Shown here: positions 52,632-64,000 of the stretch, in pieces | How positions within the stretch are numbered: the first letter of the stretch is position 1 | Layout: the number at the start of each line of letters is the position of its first letter | Assembly (NCBI RefSeq): GCF_030643905.1 | Contig: NZ_CP121446.1 | Coordinates: 2,604,001 to 2,668,000 of the forward strand | Source of the DNA: Flavobacterium sp. IMCC34852 | GTDB lineage: Bacteria > Bacteroidota > Bacteroidia > Flavobacteriales > Flavobacteriaceae | DNA length: 64,000 nucleotides | Reading direction: 5' to 3' | The notes under the pieces: model-generated | What the model saw: only the letters and a program-made list of their open reading frames with translations | What the model was told of the DNA's origin: nothing | The model's database searches: none | Translations under genes and position numbers: made by a program

Positions 52632-55600
52632 TTAGTATACCACTTTTTTGGTTACAGTTCCACCGTTTTCTCCTTCAATTTTAACAAGTAATACTTGTTG
52701 GGTAGTAGGTAAGGTTGTAAACACAGTTACTGTGTTATCTACTTGCTTTTGGGAAGCAAGCTCTCGGCCTCTAACATCGTAAATGGTTACATTTTTCATG
52801 TTAACGGTTCCCGAGTTAATATGTAATCCTCCATTGTTTTGGTAAACCACCACCGAATTCTGATTGAATACCGGATTGTTTGTTCCCAATGCATTGGTAG
52901 TATAACGAATTCTGAATCTATTGTCAAATGTTCCGCTCTCCGTCGCAAAAGAGTAAGGTGCTGCTTTAAGGTCGTGGATTACATTCAACACTAAATCTTC
53001 TAAATAAATGTTTTGCGAAGCAAACAAACCGTCAAAATCAGCAAGATTAATAGTGTAAGTACTATTGATGGTTGATTTGTATCCTAACGGAATCATTTCG
53101 TTTACATCAAAAGCCAATTGTTTTCCTTGGATGCTCAACTTAGTGTTGTCAACCATAGTATAAAGGGTAATAGCATTACCGATATCTACCATTTCACCGT
53201 CAAACAAACGGTCTATACCATTGGTAGCCGATTCTACATAACCTACTAAAGCTTGTTTGAAAGCTCCTTCAGTATTGGTGATGTCTAACCAGTATCTGTG
53301 CTTTTCTAAGCTCAATTCTGCCTCAGCATTGTTGGCGGTGTTTGGTGACAATCTGTAGAACTGACTGTTATTTCCGGCCGCACGCATGCTGTTTTTGAAA
53401 GTAGCCGTTCCGCTCGAGAATCCTTTGATAAAGAATCCTTGACCTGAGGCAATATAGCCTAACGGCACTGCATTACTTCCTCCGCCACCGAAACCGGTAT
53501 TGGTAGCTGCACTGGTACCTCCTACTAAATTGTATATCGCATAATCACTACCGGTATATTGGTAAGTAGCATTAATTGGTGTATTGTGTGTCCAGAAATA
53601 AAGGGTTCCGTTTAAGTTGGTATTGGCCGGGTCTAAAATGAAAGCACTAGCCGATAACGCACTGGTATAAGGGTTTCCTATTAAATTCATTTGAGCGGCA
53701 CCACCTACTATAGGCGTGGTTAAAGTACCATTATTAGGTGTACCATTGAACGAAGCGGTATAAGTTGCCGGCGTATTGATATCATAATCAAATGGTGCAC
53801 GGATAATATATCCTTTACCCACATCCATCAAAGAAGTCGGATTGACATAAGCCCAGTTGTTCACACTGGCATCATAAAGATAGTAAGCATCAAATGGCGT
53901 ATTCGGAGAAACATTTACTAACGTTTGCGGATTCACCGGTGTTGACCAATAAGTGTAGTCAAACTGACGAATACCCGTAGTCGTTCTTTTGTAAGTTACG
54001 TTTCCTGAGTTACCTCCTGATACTACACCCGGCGCATTAGCTACGTCAACTACTTGATACAAACTGGCATTGTTTTCAAAAGTTAAAGTTCCGCCCGAAA
54101 CTACTACAGCGTTTTGCACGGTTAGAGTTCCTACGTCGAATAAAACTGTACCACTGGTTACAGTAACACTACAAGCCGATAAGTTTCCTGAAGTGGCACT
54201 GGCGTGTACTGATGAAGTATAGTTTCCTTGGAAATCAGCTCCAATGGTGGAAGTCGGACCGGTACCGTTTGACCAAGCCGAACCATTCCAAATCGCTTTG
54301 TTGAAAGTAATGGTTACTACATTCGAATACACATCAGAACAACCGGCTAAGTTTACTACCGCTCTAAAATAACGAGCTCCCGAGAACGTTCCTATTTGAG
54401 CAGAAGTCAAAGTAGTAGAAGCACTGGCAGCAATATCGGTAACACCCGCTGTAAAGGCAAGGTCATTGGCATACTGCCATTTCACTACCGAACCGGTATT
54501 ACCTGTTAAAGTTAAGTCGGCTGCAACTCCTGAACATACGTTTTGATCGCTCGAAGCTGTTCCGGCTACGGCACCACCAATTACAAAGGTAGCTGCAGTT
54601 CTACAAGTTGGATTAGAAGAACAAGCCGCATAGTATGTCCATGTTCCCGGAGTACTGGTATTGGCTAAGCCTGAGCCTGCCACACCCACCGGATTGAAAG
54701 GACTACCCGAGCCAATAGGAGTACCTCCTGAAGCAGCGGTGTACCATTGCACTTGAGAGTTTTGGTATAATAAAGTACTTCCTCCTGATGGTGGTGTAAT
54801 GTTCCAGGTGAAAGAAGTAGCGGTACTTCCTGAATAGAAAGTAGTATATAAGGTATAAGTAACTCCTGCAGTTAAAGTGACTACCATTCTAGGGTATAAT
54901 CCTACTCCTGAGTCGTCATCTCCAATCACAAAAGTACCGGTAGCACAACTACCCGGAGTAAAGGCTCCTATGGTAATGTACCCCATAGCGTCTATAGTAA
55001 GCGGACTTGTAAAATCAAAAGTATAAGAACCTGTAACGCTTACTTGGAAGTTTACAGAAGTATATAACTGGCTGCTGGTTGAAAAACCACAAGTAGTGGA
55101 ATTACTCGAACTGAATGGTCTTGGGGCTGAAGGATCACTTAGTGTCCATGACCCGGAGATAGCGTTTACAGCATTACCGTAACCGTCACAAACTGTTGAA
55201 CTCGAAATGGTTCCTGCACCTCCGGTACAAATAGAAGCTCCCGTAGTAACCGGTGCCGGTGCTAATACCGTAAAGTCTGTAGCACTGTTAACCGACAATA
55301 CGTTAGTAGTCACTCTAATTTTTCCTGTGGTTGCGCCTGCCGGTAAAGTAGCCGTAATTTGAGTAGTACTGTTTACCGTGAAAGTTGCTGAAGCACCTCC
55401 AAAGAATACACCGGTAATTCCGGTAAAGTTAGTTCCTGTAATAACTACGGTTGTACCGCTTACACAAGCATTATCGGAAGGCGTAAATCCGGTGATGGTA
55501 GGCACATTGCTAACACAAACAATAGAGGCTGTCCATCCGGCTCCTAATACTGAACTGTCGGAACGGAACTCAAAAGTCAACGATCCGTCTGCCGCTGTGG

Positions 55601-58019
55601 ATAAGATGCTACCCGGTGAAGCGGTTCCTGACCAGGCATCAGCCGGACAAGTTTGCGGTAAGAATCCGGCAGCTCTACCAGACGGCATCAAAGTACCGGC
55701 CGAAGAAGTTCCGCTGTAAATCATTAAACCGTCCCAGTTGTTCTCGGTGGCAAAGGAGTTGAAAATAACCATCAACTTAGCGCCCGGTGTCGCCGGTACA
55801 AAAGTATACGAATAAGGAGCATAAGTCGGATTACCGGTTCTCTCATTATTAGCATAGTTTCCTCCGGTACCACCACTATCCGTAAAAGTGATATTAGAAC
55901 CACAAGTTACATTATATGGTGTAGTAAGATCAGAAATTCTAATCGTGGTTGGTGTAGTGATATTGGTTGTAGTAAAGGTGGCAAAAGCCGGTGTCCAAAT
56001 ACTGATTTGAGCCCCACAATTGGCACGCACCCATACATAATAAGTGGTGTTAGGAGACAAGGTAGAGAAAGTAATGCTGTTAGAAGCTACGGTTCCTGTT
56101 CCTGCGTCGTTGTAATTTGGTGGTGTGTTTGAAGTTGAAATAAAGTAAGCATACCCATTTGACGGTGCTCCGGTAGCCGGTGCATTCCAGTTTAAGGTAG
56201 CTCCGAAATCATTGACACCCGAAACCGGTGATCCCGGATAAGTAGGTGGCAAACAAGTTTCTACTTCTATACGAATGTTGTCAAGGTTTAATTGTACCGA
56301 AGGATCTTCTAAATCATCTACAAAGAAACGCAAGTAATACGTTCCGGTTACTGATGGCGTGTAATTCACGATATTAGAATTAATTACCGAGAAGAAACCA
56401 TTGTAGGCAATGGAATTGCTAATATTAGAAACCGTTGGCGCAGTATTGTTAGCCGGATTACCAATATTCACATCCAAACTCGCATACCCGTTTAAGTTGG
56501 TAGAATAATCATAAGTAATACGGTATAAAGTTCCTGCCGTTAAGGTTACCCCTTGGGTGTAGAAACTATCTCCTACTTGGTTTGAGTAAATGTTACCATT
56601 AGTAGCATTAGATTGGAAAACTCCATCCGTAGAAGTACAAGTTGGTAAAACACCTCCCAGTAAACCATTGAAGTTTTCTAAATACACTACCGATTGTGGC
56701 GTACACAAGGAAGTAGCCGAAATTGGTCCGATCCAAGTACTCGTACTGCCTCCACAATTAGAACGTACCCAGAAATAATAAGTAGAAGAAGCCGATAAAC
56801 CGGTAACAGTAGCCGAAGTAGTAGCACTGGTTCCTGTAGGAGTTGTACCCGAATTAGGGGCTGTATTAGAAGTACTGTGGTAAATATCATAATTACTGGC
56901 AGTACCTGTAAAATTCAAATAAGCACTGTCGTGTGAAATACCTCCCGAAGGATTAAACGTCAAACTGGTTGGTGCCGGACAACCCACACACTCCAATTTA
57001 ATTCTGAAACCGGTTTGAGTAGTCGGAAGAGTTGGAAGTCCTGCATTTGTTGTAAACTTGTAAAACAAAGCTCCGTTGGCATCAACCGAAGTATAAGTCG
57101 CCGGGATTGTTGCACCGGAAAAGTTCATACCAGGTATTTGTGTAGCATAAGTATTGTCGGTAAATAATTGCAAATAGTCATTAGTAGCTTCTGTACTGAA
57201 AGTCTCATAAGTAGCTTTGATTTTGAAAGCCGTATTCGATGGTGTGAAATAAATACTATTCGATTGATTACCAGCAGAAGTATCAGAATCACCACCTACA
57301 TCATAAAAATAATAGGTACGGGTTACATCTAAAGTTACCGGACAAGCTGTTGCATTACCTAAAGCAGGTACTATTATATTATTTTCAGAAGCTACGGAAG
57401 AAGTCCAGGCAAAATCATCTAAACATACAGCTCCATTTGTTGGATTTATTCTGGTATCAGTTACTCTAAACTTATATCCTAGAGCAGTAGCCGGAAAAGC
57501 CGCAGTAACCTTTGCCTCTTGCCAAGTAGTATTCATTGATGGTAACACACCAGTTACACTAATTGTATTTAATGCTGTAGTAACATTATTAGTTCCTGCA
57601 GCAATATTATACCACGTAGCCCCTCCATCATCTGAAAATTGGAAAGAATAAAGAGTTGTAGCAACAGTAGCCCCCCTAATATAAAAAGAAAAGGAACTCG
57701 GCGTCATTATTAATGGCGAAGTAACTGAAGCATTTGATGTACTATTAGTAGGCTGTCTTAAACTAAAAACTCCACTTCTTACTAGTGTTGTAGTTGTATT
57801 ATGAACAAAGTTAGTTGTTCCAGCAAAGGTCCAACCATTTGCTTGCATTGTTGCTATAGAAGACGGAACACCCTCAAACCCTTGATAAGGCCCAATACAT
57901 TGCGCGTTAGTTTGTTGAAAAAGACCCAGCCAAAAAGTTAAGGCTAGCAGTAGGTATCGGAAAGAAGTAGTTTTTAATAAAATCGCATTACCCGAGGCAG
58001 TAAGTAAAGTTTTTTCCAT
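52632..58019 (-). CDS. Giant T9SS cargo protein with FN3, CUB and TIG domains, type C sorting domain
   Basis: 1795 residues from the ATG at 58019 (an ATG at 58046 would add nine). Signal peptide with a long N-region, cleavage after TNAQ. Order: MAM-like N-terminal part; fibronectin type III repeats (STYYFWVRSNC, TTYYVWVRANC); a CUB domain (about 700-840: NVTCGSNITFTDSGG, NWDGLMIYSG, GSLTFEFRSDSS); a TIG/IPT domain (PTITGFTPSDNACVSG, VVITGTNFTGITGVFFGG); then about 550 C-terminal residues shared with the neighbour at 58699, ending in MKNVTIYDVRGREL and TKKVVY, a type C T9SS sorting signal. Probably surface-attached or released adhesin or glycan-binding protein. Confidence 0.9.
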   Translation of the reverse strand: MEKTLLTASGNAILLKTTSFRYLLLALTFWLGLFQQTNAQCIGPYQGFEGVPSSIATMQANGWTFAGTTNFVHNTTTTLVRSGVFSLRQPTNSTSNASVTSPLIMTPSSFSFYIRGATVATTLYSFQFSDDGGATWYNIAAGTNNVTTALNTISVTGVLPSMNTTWQEAKVTAAFPATALGYKFRVTDTRINPTNGAVCLDDFAWTSSVASENNIIVPALGNATACPVTLDVTRTYYFYDVGGDSDTSAGNQSNSIYFTPSNTAFKIKATYETFSTEATNDYLQLFTDNTYATQIPGMNFSGATIPATYTSVDANGALFYKFTTNAGLPTLPTTQTGFRIKLECVGCPAPTSLTFNPSGGISHDSAYLNFTGTASNYDIYHSTSNTAPNSGTTPTGTSATTSATVTGLSASSTYYFWVRSNCGGSTSTWIGPISATSLCTPQSVVYLENFNGLLGGVLPTCTSTDGVFQSNATNGNIYSNQVGDSFYTQGVTLTAGTLYRITYDYSTNLNGYASLDVNIGNPANNTAPTVSNISNSIAYNGFFSVINSNIVNYTPSVTGTYYLRFFVDDLEDPSVQLNLDNIRIEVETCLPPTYPGSPVSGVNDFGATLNWNAPATGAPSNGYAYFISTSNTPPNYNDAGTGTVASNSITFSTLSPNTTYYVWVRANCGAQISIWTPAFATFTTTNITTPTTIRISDLTTPYNVTCGSNITFTDSGGTGGNYANNERTGNPTYAPYSYTFVPATPGAKLMVIFNSFATENNWDGLMIYSGTSSAGTLMPSGRAAGFLPQTCPADAWSGTASPGSILSTAADGSLTFEFRSDSSVLGAGWTASIVCVSNVPTITGFTPSDNACVSGTTVVITGTNFTGITGVFFGGASATFTVNSTTQITATLPAGATTGKIRVTTNVLSVNSATDFTVLAPAPVTTGASICTGGAGTISSSTVCDGYGNAVNAISGSWTLSDPSAPRPFSSSNSTTCGFSTSSQLYTSVNFQVSVTGSYTFDFTSPLTIDAMGYITIGAFTPGSCATGTFVIGDDDSGVGLYPRMVVTLTAGVTYTLYTTFYSGSTATSFTWNITPPSGGSTLLYQNSQVQWYTAASGGTPIGSGSPFNPVGVAGSGLANTSTPGTWTYYAACSSNPTCRTAATFVIGGAVAGTASSDQNVCSGVAADLTLTGNTGSVVKWQYANDLAFTAGVTDIAASASTTLTSAQIGTFSGARYFRAVVNLAGCSDVYSNVVTITFNKAIWNGSAWSNGTGPTSTIGADFQGNYTSSVHASATSGNLSACSVTVTSGTVLFDVGTLTVQNAVVVSGGTLTFENNASLYQVVDVANAPGVVSGGNSGNVTYKRTTTGIRQFDYTYWSTPVNPQTLVNVSPNTPFDAYYLYDASVNNWAYVNPTSLMDVGKGYIIRAPFDYDINTPATYTASFNGTPNNGTLTTPIVGGAAQMNLIGNPYTSALSASAFILDPANTNLNGTLYFWTHNTPINATYQYTGSDYAIYNLVGGTSAATNTGFGGGGSNAVPLGYIASGQGFFIKGFSSGTATFKNSMRAAGNNSQFYRLSPNTANNAEAELSLEKHRYWLDITNTEGAFKQALVGYVESATNGIDRLFDGEMVDIGNAITLYTMVDNTKLSIQGKQLAFDVNEMIPLGYKSTINSTYTINLADFDGLFASQNIYLEDLVLNVIHDLKAAPYSFATESGTFDNRFRIRYTTNALGTNNPVFNQNSVVVYQNNGGLHINSGTVNMKNVTIYDVRGRELASQKQVDNTVTVFTTLPTTQQVLLVKIEGENGGTVTKKVVY

Positions 58020-58484
58020 AGTTGTTTGTTTTTGTGGTATTGTCATTATATAGTGTAACCTTTATAAACTGTGTTACCCTACGGTTAAGATGTTAAAAAT
58101 ACATCATATTAAACATTCAATTAACATTGACTTTACCAAAAAACAACGTTTTTCGATAAATGGTCAATACAATCGACCAATGATAGCCTACTCAGCCTTC
58201 ATTGGAAGTAACATAGCATAAAAAATAATAAAAGTAGTACAATATGTTAAACAAAACTTAATATTAACTTGTTCAAACTTAGTACTTTTTGGGAGTTTTG
58301 GGTGCGCTAAATTAACAAATTGTCAATACTTTGCAACAATTGTTAATAAGTTGTAACACATTTTAGGTTTTTGACTGCGTTTTGTGTAAAAATACCTTAC
58401 TTATTTTAAAGCCCTTTATGTTAAATTAAAGTTGTGATAATCATTTCATGCCAATTTTCCGGACTTGGTGTTTTCTAAAACTTA

Positions 58485-58536
58485 TGTAACAATATTTTAT
58501 GTAACATTTTATTTTGTTACAAGTTTTTTTGTTACA
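58485..58536. repeat. Array A: TGTAACA x2 then TGTTACA x2, period 15 bp
   Basis: TGTAACA starts at 58485 and 58500; its reverse complement TGTTACA starts at 58515 and 58530. All four are exactly 15 bases apart. The spacers are A/T only apart from one G. As RNA or DNA the copies can pair 1 with 4 and 2 with 3, a nested stem. Confidence 0.85.
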
Positions 58537-58540
58537 TATT

Positions 58541-58568
58541 GAAAACACAATAGCGCATATTGTTTTCG
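58541..58568. repeat. Central hairpin between the two arrays
   Basis: GAAAACA(C)AATA and TATTGTTTTC are complementary apart from one extra C and enclose GCGCA. It separates array A and array B. Confidence 0.65.
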
Positions 58569-58578
58569 CCAATTGCTT

Positions 58579-58628
58579 TGTAGCATTTTTTTTGTAGCAT
58601 TTATTTTTGCTACTTATTTTTTGCTACA
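58579..58628. repeat. Array B: TGTAGCA x2 then TGCTAC(A) x2, period 14-15 bp
   Basis: TGTAGCA starts at 58579 and 58593; TGCTACT at 58608 and TGCTACA at 58622 are the inverted copies (the third differs at the last base). Steps of 14, 15 and 14 bases. Same architecture as array A with one base changed in each half-site (A to G, T to C), so pairing is preserved. Confidence 0.85.
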
Positions 58629-58698
58629 AGATTTATAAAGGATAGCGCAGGTAATGACGGATTGCCATTAGTACCAACTAAAAAAAGGTTTGGAAATT

Positions 58699-61600
58699 TT
58701 ATCGAATGACTTTCTTAGTCACTACGTCACCATTGACCGTAGTAATTTGAAGCAATAACACTTCGTTGGCCAAGCCACCGCTAACCGTAGTTTGTGTAGC
58801 GTTGATGTCTTTTTGTTCTCCTAAAAGACGACCGCGTATATCAAAAACCTTAACAGATTGCATAGGTAGGTTACCACTTAGAATCACAAAATTATCATCG
58901 GCGTTTTTGTAAACCACTACTTGGTTGGCGTTGAATGTTGCGTTATCTACGCCCAAAGTTCCATTGGTAAACACAACATTAAATCGACTGTCAAAAGTAC
59001 CGGCTTCAGTCACAAAAGTATAATCGCTTTGTTTGAGGTCGTGAATTACATTAAGTAAAGTATCTTCGAGGTAAATGTTTTGGTGGTCAAACAAGCCGTC
59101 AAAGTTAGACAACTTGATGGTGTAAGTACTAGCCGCCAATGACTTATACCCTACCGGAATCACCTCTGATATGGCAAACGGCAAAGCGCGTCCTTGGATG
59201 GAGAGTTTCTTTTCTTCTTGCAAAGTATAAAGGGTTACAGCGTTACCCACATCTACCATTTCACCGTCATAACCGCGGTCCATTCCGGTGTTGGTAGCAC
59301 CTTCTACATAAGCAATTAAAAGTTGTTTGAAAGCGCCTTCTTCGTTGTAAATATCCAACCAAAAACGGTGGCGTTCCAATAGATTAGCCGAATGATTTGT
59401 TGGAGGCGTATTCATTCTGAAGAACTGATCGTTATTACCGGTTAAACGCATGCTGTTTTTAAAGCTCACATTCCCCGAAGCCAATCCTTTGACAAAGAAA
59501 CCTTGTCCGGAAGCTATTTTTCCGTTAGGCACACTGTTGTTCAGTCCCACATTTGGCGCAGCCGAACCCGTGCCAACACCTCCGGCATAATTATACAAGG
59601 CATAATCTGCTGCGTTGTAATTGCCATTGGCTATAGGCGTATTGTGTGTCCACAAATAAATAGTAGCGTCAATCAAAGGCACATTATCGGCATCCGACAA
59701 AAACAAATCGGCACTCAAAGCACTCGGATAAGGATTTCCAAACAAGTTAAACTGATCGGCACCGCCCACGGCAGGAATACTAATGTTTCCGGTATTGGGC
59801 ACACCCACAAAAGAACCGGCAAAAACATTTGGCGTAGTTTCATTGAAAGGCGCATTTTCGGGCGCTCTGATCAAATAGCCTTTTCCGGGAACCATAGGTG
59901 CTGTGGTATTGGCGTAAGCCCAATTGCCTGCAGCGGCATCAAAGTAAAAGAACAAAGGCGAGTCAGGCGAAAAACCTATTAAGGTTTGCGGACTCACCGG
60001 AGTTGACCAATAAATATAATCGAAAATTTTAACCGGTGTACTGTTTCTTTTATAAGTAATATTTCCGGTGTTGGTAAATTGTACTCCGTTGTTGTTAAGT
60101 GTATTGATTTGTACCAAGCTGGCATTGTTTTGAAAGGTCAAAGAACCGCCGGTTACTTTCACATCGTTTTGGGTAATTAAGGTATGCCCTGAATTAAAGA
60201 CAACATTCCCCGAAAGTACCTCAACCGAACAAACGTTTAGATTTCCGGAAGAAGAATAATTTCCGTTAAAAATGGCTTTGATTCCTACAGACGGTAAACC
60301 GTTACTCCAAGTCGAACCATTCCAAGTAGTAGAAGGAAAACCAACAAAAACACCATTAGAATAAACCACCGGACAAGTTCCTGATTGTACGACAGCACGG
60401 TAATAACGGTTTCCGGCAAAAGTTCCTATTTGCGCAGCGGTCAGTGTCGGATTGGTATTGGCTATAGTGGTTAATCCGGTAGTAAAAGATGGATTGGTGG
60501 CATATTCCCAACGCACTATAGTACCGCCCGAGCCGGTTAAAGTAAGATCGTTTACGGACCAGTTGGCACAAACGATTTGGTCACTGGATAAAACACCCGG
60601 TGCCGGAGCCGGAAGCACAGTGATAGTAGAAGAAGCACTGGCCGAACAGCCATTGGCTCCTACTACACTTCCGGTATAAACGGTGGTAGTGGCCGGTTTG
60701 GCATAAACAGTACCGGTAGGAGTTCCTGCAATGTAAGGATCGGTAGCCGCCGCATTGAAATACAATCCGGTTGGCGGTGTCCAAGTTACTTCGGCTGCTA
60801 GGTTACCGCTGATTTTGACATTGTCAATTGCCCAACCGTAATCCCAGGTAGCTTCATATAAAAATCGGATTCTAACATCAGGATTTCCTGCATAACTGTC
60901 CATCACTACAGTTGCGTTCGAGAAATTGGAAGCAGTTCCTTGGGTAGCCAAGAAACTTCTGAGAATAGCCCAAGTAGTACCACCGTCGGTTGACACTTCT
61001 ACTCTAGCCTTGTTTCCGCCAATGTATCTGAGGTAGTGGTAAAAATTTAAGGTCGCTGAAGTATACCCAACCAAACTAATAGATGGTGATTGCAAGTAAG
61101 TAAGAGTACGATTGGTTCCCGGACTTCCTTGCGCATCAGAATTGGAAAAATAAAATTTAGACGCATCATTGCTGCTCACGTTGATATTCCAATAAGAACT
61201 GGTGTAAGTGTAAACGCTGGTTCTTTTGGTCCAAGCCGCATTGGCTATAGTACCGCCAACGGAAGCATTGATTTTAATCCAGTTATCGGTAGTACCGTTA
61301 AAGTTTTCACTGTAAATAGTGACCGGAGTTGCCGCTGCTAAGCTACCGGTAAGCGATTGAATCGCGCCTTCACAAATAGTAGCAGATGGCGGTATCACTG
61401 TAATGGCCGGTGGTTCAGGCTTAACAGTTACCGTATGAGAAATGACCGAAGTACACAAACTTCCCGAAGTTTGGGTAGCGGTTAAATTATAAGTTGTTGT
61501 GGTAATAGGTTGGAATGTATATCCGGCAGCCACCGAACCCGATAAACCTGCGGTAGTATTCCAAGTAAAATTATTATACGAACCGGCACCAGTTACGGTA

Positions 61601-64000
61601 ACCAATCCTGTGGCTTCACCTTTACAAATAATGGAAGAAGGAGAACTGAAAGAAATGGCCGGTGCTGCGGTAACCGTTGCCGTTACCGGAGTTAATAGTG
61701 AGCGACAAATATTAGAGAACTTCCAGTTATAAGCATACAAATAGAAGGTATTATCAAAACCGTTTCCAACGATACTGGCGATAGAAGAAGTATAAGGATA
61801 AGAAGCACTGTCAATATTCACAACCAGTCCGGAAGCCGGTAAAGTATTGAAGTAAACAAAGTAATTACCTTGCGCCAAATTGAGCGCCATATTAATAGTT
61901 TGCGGTGTACTTCCACCCGATACCGAAGTAACAAAGTTATAAGTAGCAATCTGCACATTAGAAGCATTTCTAATCACAATCTGTCCGCTTTGCCCTGAAG
62001 TTTGCGGATAAATATCAAAAGACTGTAAAGTAGTAGCTGCCGAGACTGAAAAACTGATAAACGTTGGGGTTTGTTGCAGACCCAAAGCGCCGCCTTGCAG
62101 CAATGGAGAAATTGGTCCGGCCAAAACCAATCCGCCCGGTGCTCTTGACTGGGCATAATAAGTTGTGGTTGCAAATAAAGTTGGTGTTACATAATTGCTT
62201 CCGGTGAATAACAGTGTATCTCCGGTGGCCTCGGCATACCATTCAATGGTAGAGCCCGGAGCACCAACCGCTTGCAAAGTAGTAGAACCACCTCCGCAGA
62301 GAGTTCCGTTGGTTACAGTTAAAGAAGTTGGCGTGGCACAATCGGTACTAAAGGTTTCAATATTACTCCAAACGCTTCGGTCAGTACCGTCACATTTTCC
62401 TCTTACCCATACATAATATAAGGTAGCGGGTGTTAAACCTGTAATAGTTGCTGTAGTAATTCCGGCACCAACCGAACCCGTCGGCGTTACCGAACCACTC
62501 GGGGTAGTATTAGAAGTACTTACATAATATTCGTAACCGTTACTTGGTGCAGGAAATGAAGCATCCCAAGAAATTCCGGCAGTAGTACTGCCTACGGTAG
62601 TTACAATCAAATTGGTAGGCTCAAAACAAGTAGGCGAAACGATTACACTTATGTCATCAATCATAATCTTGCTTTGGTTGGCAAAACTATACCCTTGAAA
62701 ACCAATGTAGAAAATATTGTTGGTTACCGGTGTAAAATCGACGGTAGCGGTTTGGTACACGGTATTGATGATATTGGACAAATCCAATATGGTATTGTTC
62801 ATTAAAGCTTCAGTCTGACCTGTTCCTAAACGCACTCTGAGGTTTTCAGCATAAGAACCCGCGCTTAGTGTGTTGTATTTGAATCGCAAACGATAAGTAA
62901 CTCCGGCGGTTAAATCCAAACCGGCAGTAAAAAACCAATCGTCGGAATCAATACCGGTATTGGTTAACAAATGCATCGAATTAGGATTGGAAGCCGAAGT
63001 AGTATTCTGTACTTTCCAAGCTACACTATCGGCATTGGTATCCGTTATGACGAAACAAGTAGGCAATGTATTGATGGGTGTTGTGTCAAAACTTTGAAAA
63101 TAAGGAATTGGGAAAGCACCACAAGGTGTTGGCACCGCCACAACAGCACTATTAACGGAACAAGAAATTCCAACAGCCCGCACTCTGAAATAATAGGTTG
63201 TCAGCGGACTCAAACCTGAAACCACATAATCCGTAGTAATTCCGGTAGCCACTCCGTTGTAAGCCGGTAATATGGCAGTAAAGCCGATGTTGGTAGAAAC
63301 ATCAAGCAAATAGTTGGTCGCACCGGTAACCGGTAACCAAGATGCAGTAAAAGAATTCCCTTCGATGGTTGAAGCAAATACTCCGGTCGGCGCTGCTATA
63401 CAAGTAGTTTTAGACGCGGTAATCATATTGCTTAAATTATAAAACGGACCACCAAGACAACCGGCATTGTATGGGATAACCCAATAGTAATAAGTTGTGT
63501 TAGGTGTTAATGCTGATTGGTTAAAAGTGGTAGCATTAGAGACACTTACCACAGTGTAAGTTCCGGCAATAATGTTATTGACTGCGTAATAAGTTCGGTT
63601 TGGTACTTCTATATTGGTTGGCGGTACATTGACAGTACTTCTCAAGACCAAATAATTGGTAGGTGCCGGACTGGCAGCCGTAAAACTATTCCCTAAAAAC
63701 GTAGTCGCATTCACGGCAGTACTTCCTACCACCAAAGCAGAAGGAGTTCCGGTTGGCGTAGTACATGGTGCCGATGGCGTGTAAGTATATTTTAAACCGC
63801 TGTTAGGATATTCGGTAACACTGACTCTGACCGTACTCGAGTTGGCAATACCAACCGTAGTTTTCCCAAGCCAAGTACTGTTGGTATTGGTTCCGGTTTG
63901 CAATCTGTTGTTAACTTCCCCTTGCAGAAAGTCGTTGGTTACACCTCTTAATCCCACTTGGGCATTGAGCACTGTAACATCGTCCGGAGCACATGCTCCA
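58699..64000 (-). CDS. Giant T9SS cargo protein with FN3 and MAM-like domains, type C sorting domain (5' end outside window)
   Basis: More than 1765 residues; the frame stays open to the window edge (codons APDDVTVLNAQVG at the border), so the GTG at 63972 is not a start. Fibronectin type III repeats (TTYYYWVIPYNAGC, TTYYFRVRAVGISC, LYYVWVRGKC), MAM/jelly-roll-like segments (IPYFQSFDTTPINTLPTCF; TVVMDSYAGNPDVRIRFLYE) and Ig-like domains. The last 545 residues (from TWNGSTWSNGL at about 60330) closely match the C-terminus of the 1795-residue neighbour and end in VKVFDIRGRLLGEQKD and TKKVIR, a type C T9SS sorting signal. Confidence 0.9.
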   Translation of the reverse strand, partial: GACAPDDVTVLNAQVGLRGVTNDFLQGEVNNRLQTGTNTNSTWLGKTTVGIANSSTVRVSVTEYPNSGLKYTYTPSAPCTTPTGTPSALVVGSTAVNATTFLGNSFTAASPAPTNYLVLRSTVNVPPTNIEVPNRTYYAVNNIIAGTYTVVSVSNATTFNQSALTPNTTYYYWVIPYNAGCLGGPFYNLSNMITASKTTCIAAPTGVFASTIEGNSFTASWLPVTGATNYLLDVSTNIGFTAILPAYNGVATGITTDYVVSGLSPLTTYYFRVRAVGISCSVNSAVVAVPTPCGAFPIPYFQSFDTTPINTLPTCFVITDTNADSVAWKVQNTTSASNPNSMHLLTNTGIDSDDWFFTAGLDLTAGVTYRLRFKYNTLSAGSYAENLRVRLGTGQTEALMNNTILDLSNIINTVYQTATVDFTPVTNNIFYIGFQGYSFANQSKIMIDDISVIVSPTCFEPTNLIVTTVGSTTAGISWDASFPAPSNGYEYYVSTSNTTPSGSVTPTGSVGAGITTATITGLTPATLYYVWVRGKCDGTDRSVWSNIETFSTDCATPTSLTVTNGTLCGGGSTTLQAVGAPGSTIEWYAEATGDTLLFTGSNYVTPTLFATTTYYAQSRAPGGLVLAGPISPLLQGGALGLQQTPTFISFSVSAATTLQSFDIYPQTSGQSGQIVIRNASNVQIATYNFVTSVSGGSTPQTINMALNLAQGNYFVYFNTLPASGLVVNIDSASYPYTSSIASIVGNGFDNTFYLYAYNWKFSNICRSLLTPVTATVTAAPAISFSSPSSIICKGEATGLVTVTGAGSYNNFTWNTTAGLSGSVAAGYTFQPITTTTYNLTATQTSGSLCTSVISHTVTVKPEPPAITVIPPSATICEGAIQSLTGSLAAATPVTIYSENFNGTTDNWIKINASVGGTIANAAWTKRTSVYTYTSSYWNINVSSNDASKFYFSNSDAQGSPGTNRTLTYLQSPSISLVGYTSATLNFYHYLRYIGGNKARVEVSTDGGTTWAILRSFLATQGTASNFSNATVVMDSYAGNPDVRIRFLYEATWDYGWAIDNVKISGNLAAEVTWTPPTGLYFNAAATDPYIAGTPTGTVYAKPATTTVYTGSVVGANGCSASASSTITVLPAPAPGVLSSDQIVCANWSVNDLTLTGSGGTIVRWEYATNPSFTTGLTTIANTNPTLTAAQIGTFAGNRYYRAVVQSGTCPVVYSNGVFVGFPSTTWNGSTWSNGLPSVGIKAIFNGNYSSSGNLNVCSVEVLSGNVVFNSGHTLITQNDVKVTGGSLTFQNNASLVQINTLNNNGVQFTNTGNITYKRNSTPVKIFDYIYWSTPVSPQTLIGFSPDSPLFFYFDAAAGNWAYANTTAPMVPGKGYLIRAPENAPFNETTPNVFAGSFVGVPNTGNISIPAVGGADQFNLFGNPYPSALSADLFLSDADNVPLIDATIYLWTHNTPIANGNYNAADYALYNYAGGVGTGSAAPNVGLNNSVPNGKIASGQGFFVKGLASGNVSFKNSMRLTGNNDQFFRMNTPPTNHSANLLERHRFWLDIYNEEGAFKQLLIAYVEGATNTGMDRGYDGEMVDVGNAVTLYTLQEEKKLSIQGRALPFAISEVIPVGYKSLAASTYTIKLSNFDGLFDHQNIYLEDTLLNVIHDLKQSDYTFVTEAGTFDSRFNVVFTNGTLGVDNATFNANQVVVYKNADDNFVILSGNLPMQSVKVFDIRGRLLGEQKDINATQTTVSGGLANEVLLLQITTVNGDVVTKKVIR

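Follow-up and report, generated by a model that had tools for sequence, protein, structure and literature searches.

Repeat arrays between two T9SS genes of a Flavobacterium look like docking sites of a large family of XRE-like HTH proteins

Introduction

In a 64-kb stretch of the Flavobacterium sp. IMCC34852 chromosome (hereafter the window), the gap between two genes for T9SS surface proteins holds two arrays of short half-sites with a hairpin between them, and the question raised by this locus is what reads these arrays and what they do there. To our knowledge, little is known about the control of T9SS surface proteins. The initial annotation of the window considered the arrays as selected rather than accidental, either as RNA or cruciform structures in which half-sites 1-4 and 2-3 pair, or as paired protein sites, and proposed that they could end, attenuate or regulate transcription. 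The observation holds and extends further than that annotation saw, and its interpretation was borne out in part: the best reading of the mechanism is that of protein-binding arrays, belonging to a known kind, the XRE-like regulators with their operators.

Results

The arrays of the window

Both arrays lie where they had been described and with the same spacing (Table 1); the third half-site of array 2 is indeed present, but it is imperfect (TGCTACT), while it had been written as TGCTAC. The hairpin between the arrays exists as well, and both flanking minus-strand genes match NF033708 (T9SS type C sorting domain) above its cut-off of 40 bits, confirming the position between T9SS genes. The arrays lie about 70-214 bp beyond the stop codon of one flanking gene and about 440-580 bp ahead of the start codon of the other. 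The distance to this start codon is at least 440 bp, and a promoter was not identified.

Table 1. Features of the array-bearing gap, its flanking genes and the resident HTH gene. Positions are those of the 64-kb window, except for the last row, which refers to the window's own genome (G000).
Feature	Position	Strand	Details
Array 1	58485..58536	.	TGTAACA 58485-58491, TGTAACA 58500-58506, TGTTACA 58515-58521, TGTTACA 58530-58536; steps 15/15/15
Array 1, convergent pairs	58485/58515 and 58500/58530		each 30 bp apart; putative pairing, after the 28-30-bp unit of HTH promoters
Array 2	58579..58628	.	TGTAGCA 58579-58585, TGTAGCA 58593-58599, TGCTACT 58608-58614, TGCTACA 58622-58628; steps 14/15/14
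Array 2, convergent pairs	58579/58608 and 58593/58622		each 29 bp apart
Inter-array hairpin	58541..58567	.	GAAAACACAATA GCGCA TATTGTTTTC
Terminator-like match in array 2	58594..58613	+	inner stem and T-rich tail; predicted from sequence pattern
T9SS surface-protein gene, arrays lie upstream	52632..58046	-	1804 aa, fn3 and TIG domains; NF033708 52.4 bits
T9SS surface-protein gene ending before the arrays	58699..63972	-	1757 aa from GTG, fn3 and Ig-like domains; NF033708 40.9 bits
Resident TGTAACA-type HTH gene	G000:C1:2021228-2021734		~641 kb from the window arrays

An exact-word scan of the window (w, w, rc(w), rc(w) at steps of 12-18 bp) recovered these two arrays and no others when 6-mers were used, and just array 1 when 7-mers were used. 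The gap is rich in A+T and could not be aligned with its counterpart in the Flavobacterium genome J49 beyond about position 58410, as might be expected if the arrays were chance repeats in AT-rich intergenic DNA. However, no array arose when the 652-bp gap was shuffled 2000 times with dinucleotides preserved, a reversed-pattern control found nothing in the 398 sampled genomes of the genus, and the arrays recur in HTH promoters (see below). We therefore regard chance as next to impossible, and the earlier claim of selection is supported.

Other repeats were observed around the arrays. Counting both strands, the 64-kb window has two copies of ATAGCGCA (58550-58557 and 58642-58649), each 20 bp after the start of an array's last half-site, and the pair is perhaps the trace of a tandem duplication. 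A perfect 8-bp inverted repeat, GTGTTTTC/GAAAACAC, flanks array 1 (58468-58475 and 58541-58548). The inter-array hairpin does not appear in the alignment with the J49 gap.

Recurrence of the arrays and the HTH family

A search of Flavobacterium genomes, as suggested by the initial annotation, recovered the array elsewhere: the pattern TGTARCA..TGTARCA..TGYTACA is present in 5 of the 398 sampled genomes of the genus and, in a phylum sample, in 1 of 395, namely the window's own. Scanning public genomes gave 87 stretches, with full arrays in several Flavobacterium, Chitinophagaceae and Hymenobacter records; others, e.g., in Clostridia, resemble coding repeats by their appearance. A first DNA similarity search produced mostly AT-rich chance matches, with the exception of an HTH promoter in the same genome. 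In G000 a second TGTAACA array precedes a small HTH gene and stops one base short of its start codon, and two TGTGACA pairs 41 bp apart (G000:C1:2905866-2905943; L369:2967-3044) are located 115 bp before a gene of 464 aa.

Arrays with the grammar of the window are found immediately in front of genes encoding XRE-like HTH proteins (about 175 aa), also in Chitinophagaceae and in one Sphingobacteriales record (L103, L108, L111, L151, L157). A profile built on ten of these proteins matched at least 69 of the 398 sampled Flavobacterium genomes at E 1e-6, often several times per genome (these counts are lower bounds, up to 8 candidates per genome being scored), and 26 proteins of one Chitinophagaceae genome at E 1e-5. 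In Pfam, the G225 ortholog exceeded the HTH_3 cut-off (29.7 vs. 23 bits), while the G000 protein (25.1 bits vs. a cut-off of 30.2) and the G147 protein remained below the cut-offs. The predicted model (mean pLDDT 89) shows long C-terminal helices and a helix at residues 27-34 that holds the reading positions discussed below; a fold search with the HTH protein returned nothing at E 0.001 or better (best 0.22). In 34 of 116 loci the HTH gene is followed by a partner gene of about 136 aa (e.g., L108:4995-5405 and L151:4856-5269), whose product is predicted as a two-helix hairpin, matched no named family above any cut-off and reached a best E of 0.15 in the fold search. PADLOC, PHROGs and NCBIfam returned only generic HTH or regulator matches for the HTH and partner proteins. 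The neighbours are otherwise mostly unrelated from locus to locus, the partner being the most frequent neighbour family. Mobility of the HTH gene as a cassette was considered for F. paronense and rejected, since its four copies lie within near-identical segments longer than 5 kb and the gene was thus copied together with larger DNA. No description of the family or of the arrays was found in a literature search that covered few of the subscription journals.

In the 220 bp upstream of the HTH genes, a repeat word exceeded the 99.9th percentile of shuffles in 77 of 118 regions and a TGT-word the 99th percentile in 87 of 117, the words being TGTGGCA, TGTAGCA, TGTGACA, TGTAACA, TGTGTCA, TGTTTCA, TGTTGCA and rarer ones. 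Spacing between neighbouring half-sites peaks at 28-29 bp for convergent, 11-12 bp for divergent and 14 bp for direct orientation. Convergent 7-bp pairs with exact words, 27-31 bp apart, occur in 66 of 117 promoters vs. 0.7% of shuffles, which for pairs as for repeat words preserve base composition only; 34 of these promoters have a single exact pair, 15 combine pairs at an offset of 38-42 bp, 8 at 14-16 bp (the window type), 4 at both and 5 at other offsets. The common unit is a pair of convergent half-sites 28-30 bp apart, and the window arrays are therefore read as interleaved pairs 1-3 and 2-4. This supports the paired protein sites of the initial annotation and makes the pairing of 1-4 and 2-3 unnecessary. 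As in XRE-like regulators, putative operators are found, by computation, at the genes' own promoters. TAnnTTTG, a promoter motif of Bacteroidota, was present in 24 of the 118 upstream regions and was uninformative.

RNA hairpins or cruciforms, with nested stems ending or attenuating transcription, would offer a different explanation of the arrays. The RNA fold of 58460-58660 forms nested stems and beats 200 of 200 shuffles (z −6.25), a result expected of any inverted repeat such as this one, and array 2 contains one terminator-like match against a mean of 0.2 expected from 50 shuffles. This match is, however, antisense to both flanking genes, and no intrinsic terminator (a G+C-rich stem followed by a T run) was found on the strand of the gene ending there; the suggestion that the arrays could end transcription may hold for a plus-strand transcript, the only match being on that strand. 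Moreover, the spacers inside the window stems are unpaired, and the two sub-threshold matches in Rfam fall outside the arrays and are not near the gathering score. Perfect palindromes of the TGTAACA word including the spacers, unlike the Flavobacterium arrays, were observed in Hymenobacter (L082:3435-3487 and L112:5071-5122) and would suit nested stems, but many HTH promoters carry the same words in tandem pairs that form none. Considering also that the word follows the residues of a protein, as described in the next section, structured RNA or cruciforms appear quite unlikely.

The word and the recognition helix

The association between word and protein was analyzed starting from 117 promoters, 87 of which passed, corresponding to 85 full-length proteins and to 81 after an 80% identity filter. 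Statistics on the variable bases x and y were based on the 55 proteins with a usable TGTxyC[AC] word; the remaining 26, whose words fell outside this form or were taken to be TGTCACG or TGTCCTT, did not enter them, and TGTCACA was treated as TGTGACA in the training test. Bases x and y co-vary with helix positions 9/5 and 8/12, respectively, above any other of the 169 columns: mutual information peaks at positions 8 (z 13.3) and 12 (8.3) for y and at positions 9 (z 13.7) and 5 (6.2) for x, whereas the best columns outside the helix reach z 3.0 for y and 4.3 for x. A G at y goes with Ser8 (25/25) and an A with Ala8 (11/14), while at x, G goes with Met9 (26/27), A with Leu9 (12/16) and T with Gly or Ala at position 5 (9/12); C as base 6 of the word goes with Arg4 in 58 of 62 cases.

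The rules of this code were recorded after a held-out set of loci had been obtained and before its inspection. The set comprised 44 proteins from six other genomes: 22 showed an exact pair with the expected geometry (vs. 0.2% of shuffles), the 22 without one were left unscored, and the removal of the near-duplicates L351 and L356 left 20. Using geometric words, x was predicted correctly in 10 of 14 cases and y in 12 of 16, against permutation means of 5.7 and 5.2 (p = 0.0076 for x and 0.0002 for y; none of 20000 permutations reached both). Geometry was chosen for scoring after the first extraction had left strand orientation open; with the first, count-only words, x was right in 12 of 16 cases, a score also obtained by always guessing G, and y in 11 of 20. 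The word read by each protein appears largely predictable from a few of its amino acids.

An HTH gene with its array follows sucD in G000 and in four other Flavobacterium genomes, with Ala8 and four TGTAACA-type half-sites in G000 and J49, and Ser8 and TGTAGCA-type half-sites in G225, G280 and FEMGT703F (in G225 one half-site is CGTAGCA). Two repeated units of G225, approximately 78% identical, differ by the same base in all four half-sites and hardly at all in the spacers. Since base pairing would not need a four-way agreement of half-sites, a reading protein explains the compensating change better. That change, noticed from the outset in all copies of the window arrays, tracks the amino acids of the cognate HTH protein.

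Arrays away from HTH genes

The helix of the resident G000 protein predicts TGTAACA, the word of array 1. No reader of TGTAGCA or TGTGACA was found among the five family matches of G000, all 10 candidates being scored to E 1, nor was one found for the TGTGTCA array of the same gap among the four matches of J49, with all candidates likewise scored. In G280 the array beside recX reads TGTAACA and the sucD-linked protein predicts TGTAGCA, a mismatch, and G225 has six TGTAACA arrays and no TGTAACA-type protein among the five matches listed (8 of 17 candidates scored). Words with no reader among the matches listed, drawn from part of the candidates, occur in G280, G225 and G147.

J49 possesses the same two T9SS genes as the window, with a gap that is well conserved up to near 58410 and beyond it contains CGTGTCA, TGACACA, TGTGTCA and TGACACA at steps of 27, 12 and 28. 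A further gap, upstream of a T9SS gene (NF033708 49.8 bits in G280) and beside a recX-like gene, carries a TGTAACA array in both J49 and G280, a degenerate half-array remnant in G000, and no array in G225, G358 and G147. A dense run of short GGAAAGCACAGTTTTTA-like repeats was observed beside recX in G225 (L307), where a separate region (G225:C1:2848001-2900000; L171-L173) shows a cassette-like cluster of small genes in the same direction; seven arrays lie there within repeated units of ~450-600 bp, and the cluster might be read as integron-like.

Arrays away from HTH genes could be relics of operators, or copies of them that spread passively, and play no present part at their neighbours, an explanation compatible with the one given for the HTH promoters. 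It would account for the words that have no resident reader in G000 and J49, the G225 arrays inside duplicated units, the arrays in convergent gaps, where no operator is expected (L302, L378), and the degenerate half array of G000. Nevertheless, between J49 and G280 the recX gap has kept 27 of 28 bases in the half-sites and only 15 of 24 in the spacers, G000 and J49 carry different arrays in the same gap, and array 1 is intact and matches a resident reader. We consider this explanation a tentative possibility for such arrays in general, a part of which may be relics.

Mobilization as REP-type palindromes by an IS200-like tyrosine transposase (RAYT) was also considered. Y1_Tnp genes were located beside an array in G797 (C43:134074 and 134577) and, in G147, some 1 kb past an HTH gene (C1:836717 and 835721). 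On the other hand, the sole Y1_Tnp match of G000 (292229) is far from every array found, G358 lacks a Y1_Tnp match despite its two TGTAGCA arrays, and the words track the helix of the HTH protein, making a RAYT origin very improbable.

Discussion

Protein-binding arrays read by XRE-like HTH proteins, serving as operators of the proteins' own genes, with array 1 addressed to a resident reader and a distal role at a T9SS gene, form a reading that we consider probable as a whole. Each HTH protein would read its own seven-base word, often of the form TGTxyCA, as convergent half-sites 28-30 bp apart. Since in most sampled cases the word is repeated just upstream of the protein's own gene, the protein most likely represses or tunes itself. 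The arrays themselves, their recurrence in HTH promoters, their 28-30-bp unit and the code linking word and helix are computed observations, from which we infer physical binding, autoregulation and control of a T9SS gene. Array 1, bearing the word of the only TGTAACA-type member of the family found in G000, is well supported as the predicted site of that protein; array 2 has the word of a sister type and may be either a relic or the site of a reader outside those found. The likeliest role of the window arrays would be that of a distal control region for the T9SS gene downstream of them (52632-58046), a role that is plausible only.

In a broader and rather unlikely scenario, Flavobacteria and Chitinophagaceae would possess an expanding address system, in which many paralogous HTH proteins each use one word, mostly of the TGTxyCA type, with half-sites spaced by 28-30 bp, arrays are re-lettered as a whole together with changes in the helix, and intergenic slots (TGTAACA and TGTAGCA here, TGTGTCA in J49) are handed from one reader to another. 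If this were true, the control of surface proteins would change hands by a change of letters. Regardless of this scenario, the family constitutes a naturally occurring code of protein-DNA recognition. Its dozens of protein-site pairs, the majority from a single genus, can be taken straight from genomes, since each protein tends to adjoin its own sites. Such a set permits testing how DNA-binding specificity diversifies after duplication, and it provides candidate regulators for T9SS surface proteins.

Among known systems, the arrays recall REP and BIME palindromes with their RAYT in being dispersed intergenic palindromic units, but differ from them in that the word is tied to an HTH protein and arrays are present in G358 with no transposase match. 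The proteins are closer to XRE/Cro-like regulators (HTH_3, HTH_19; phage 434 Cro, P22 c2), to which they show weak sequence or fold matches and with which they share an N-terminal HTH, with the predicted helix at residues 27-34; they depart from these by a long helical C-terminal part belonging to no named family, by a distance of 28-30 bp between half-sites, and by numerous paralogs, each tied to a word of its own. Controller (C) proteins, known from restriction-modification systems, are also small XRE-like proteins with upstream sites, and C.BclI and C.Kpn2I gave weak matches to the HTH protein, whose family has, by contrast, mostly unrelated neighbour genes between loci. Residues of the DNA-binding domain are reported to correlate with site bases in the MerR and LacI families (PMC5045206, PMC4052901); by comparison, the pairs presented here derive from one undescribed family and are read from the promoter beside each gene. 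The HTH family appears to be large and mostly undescribed, and the arrays look like its docking sites.
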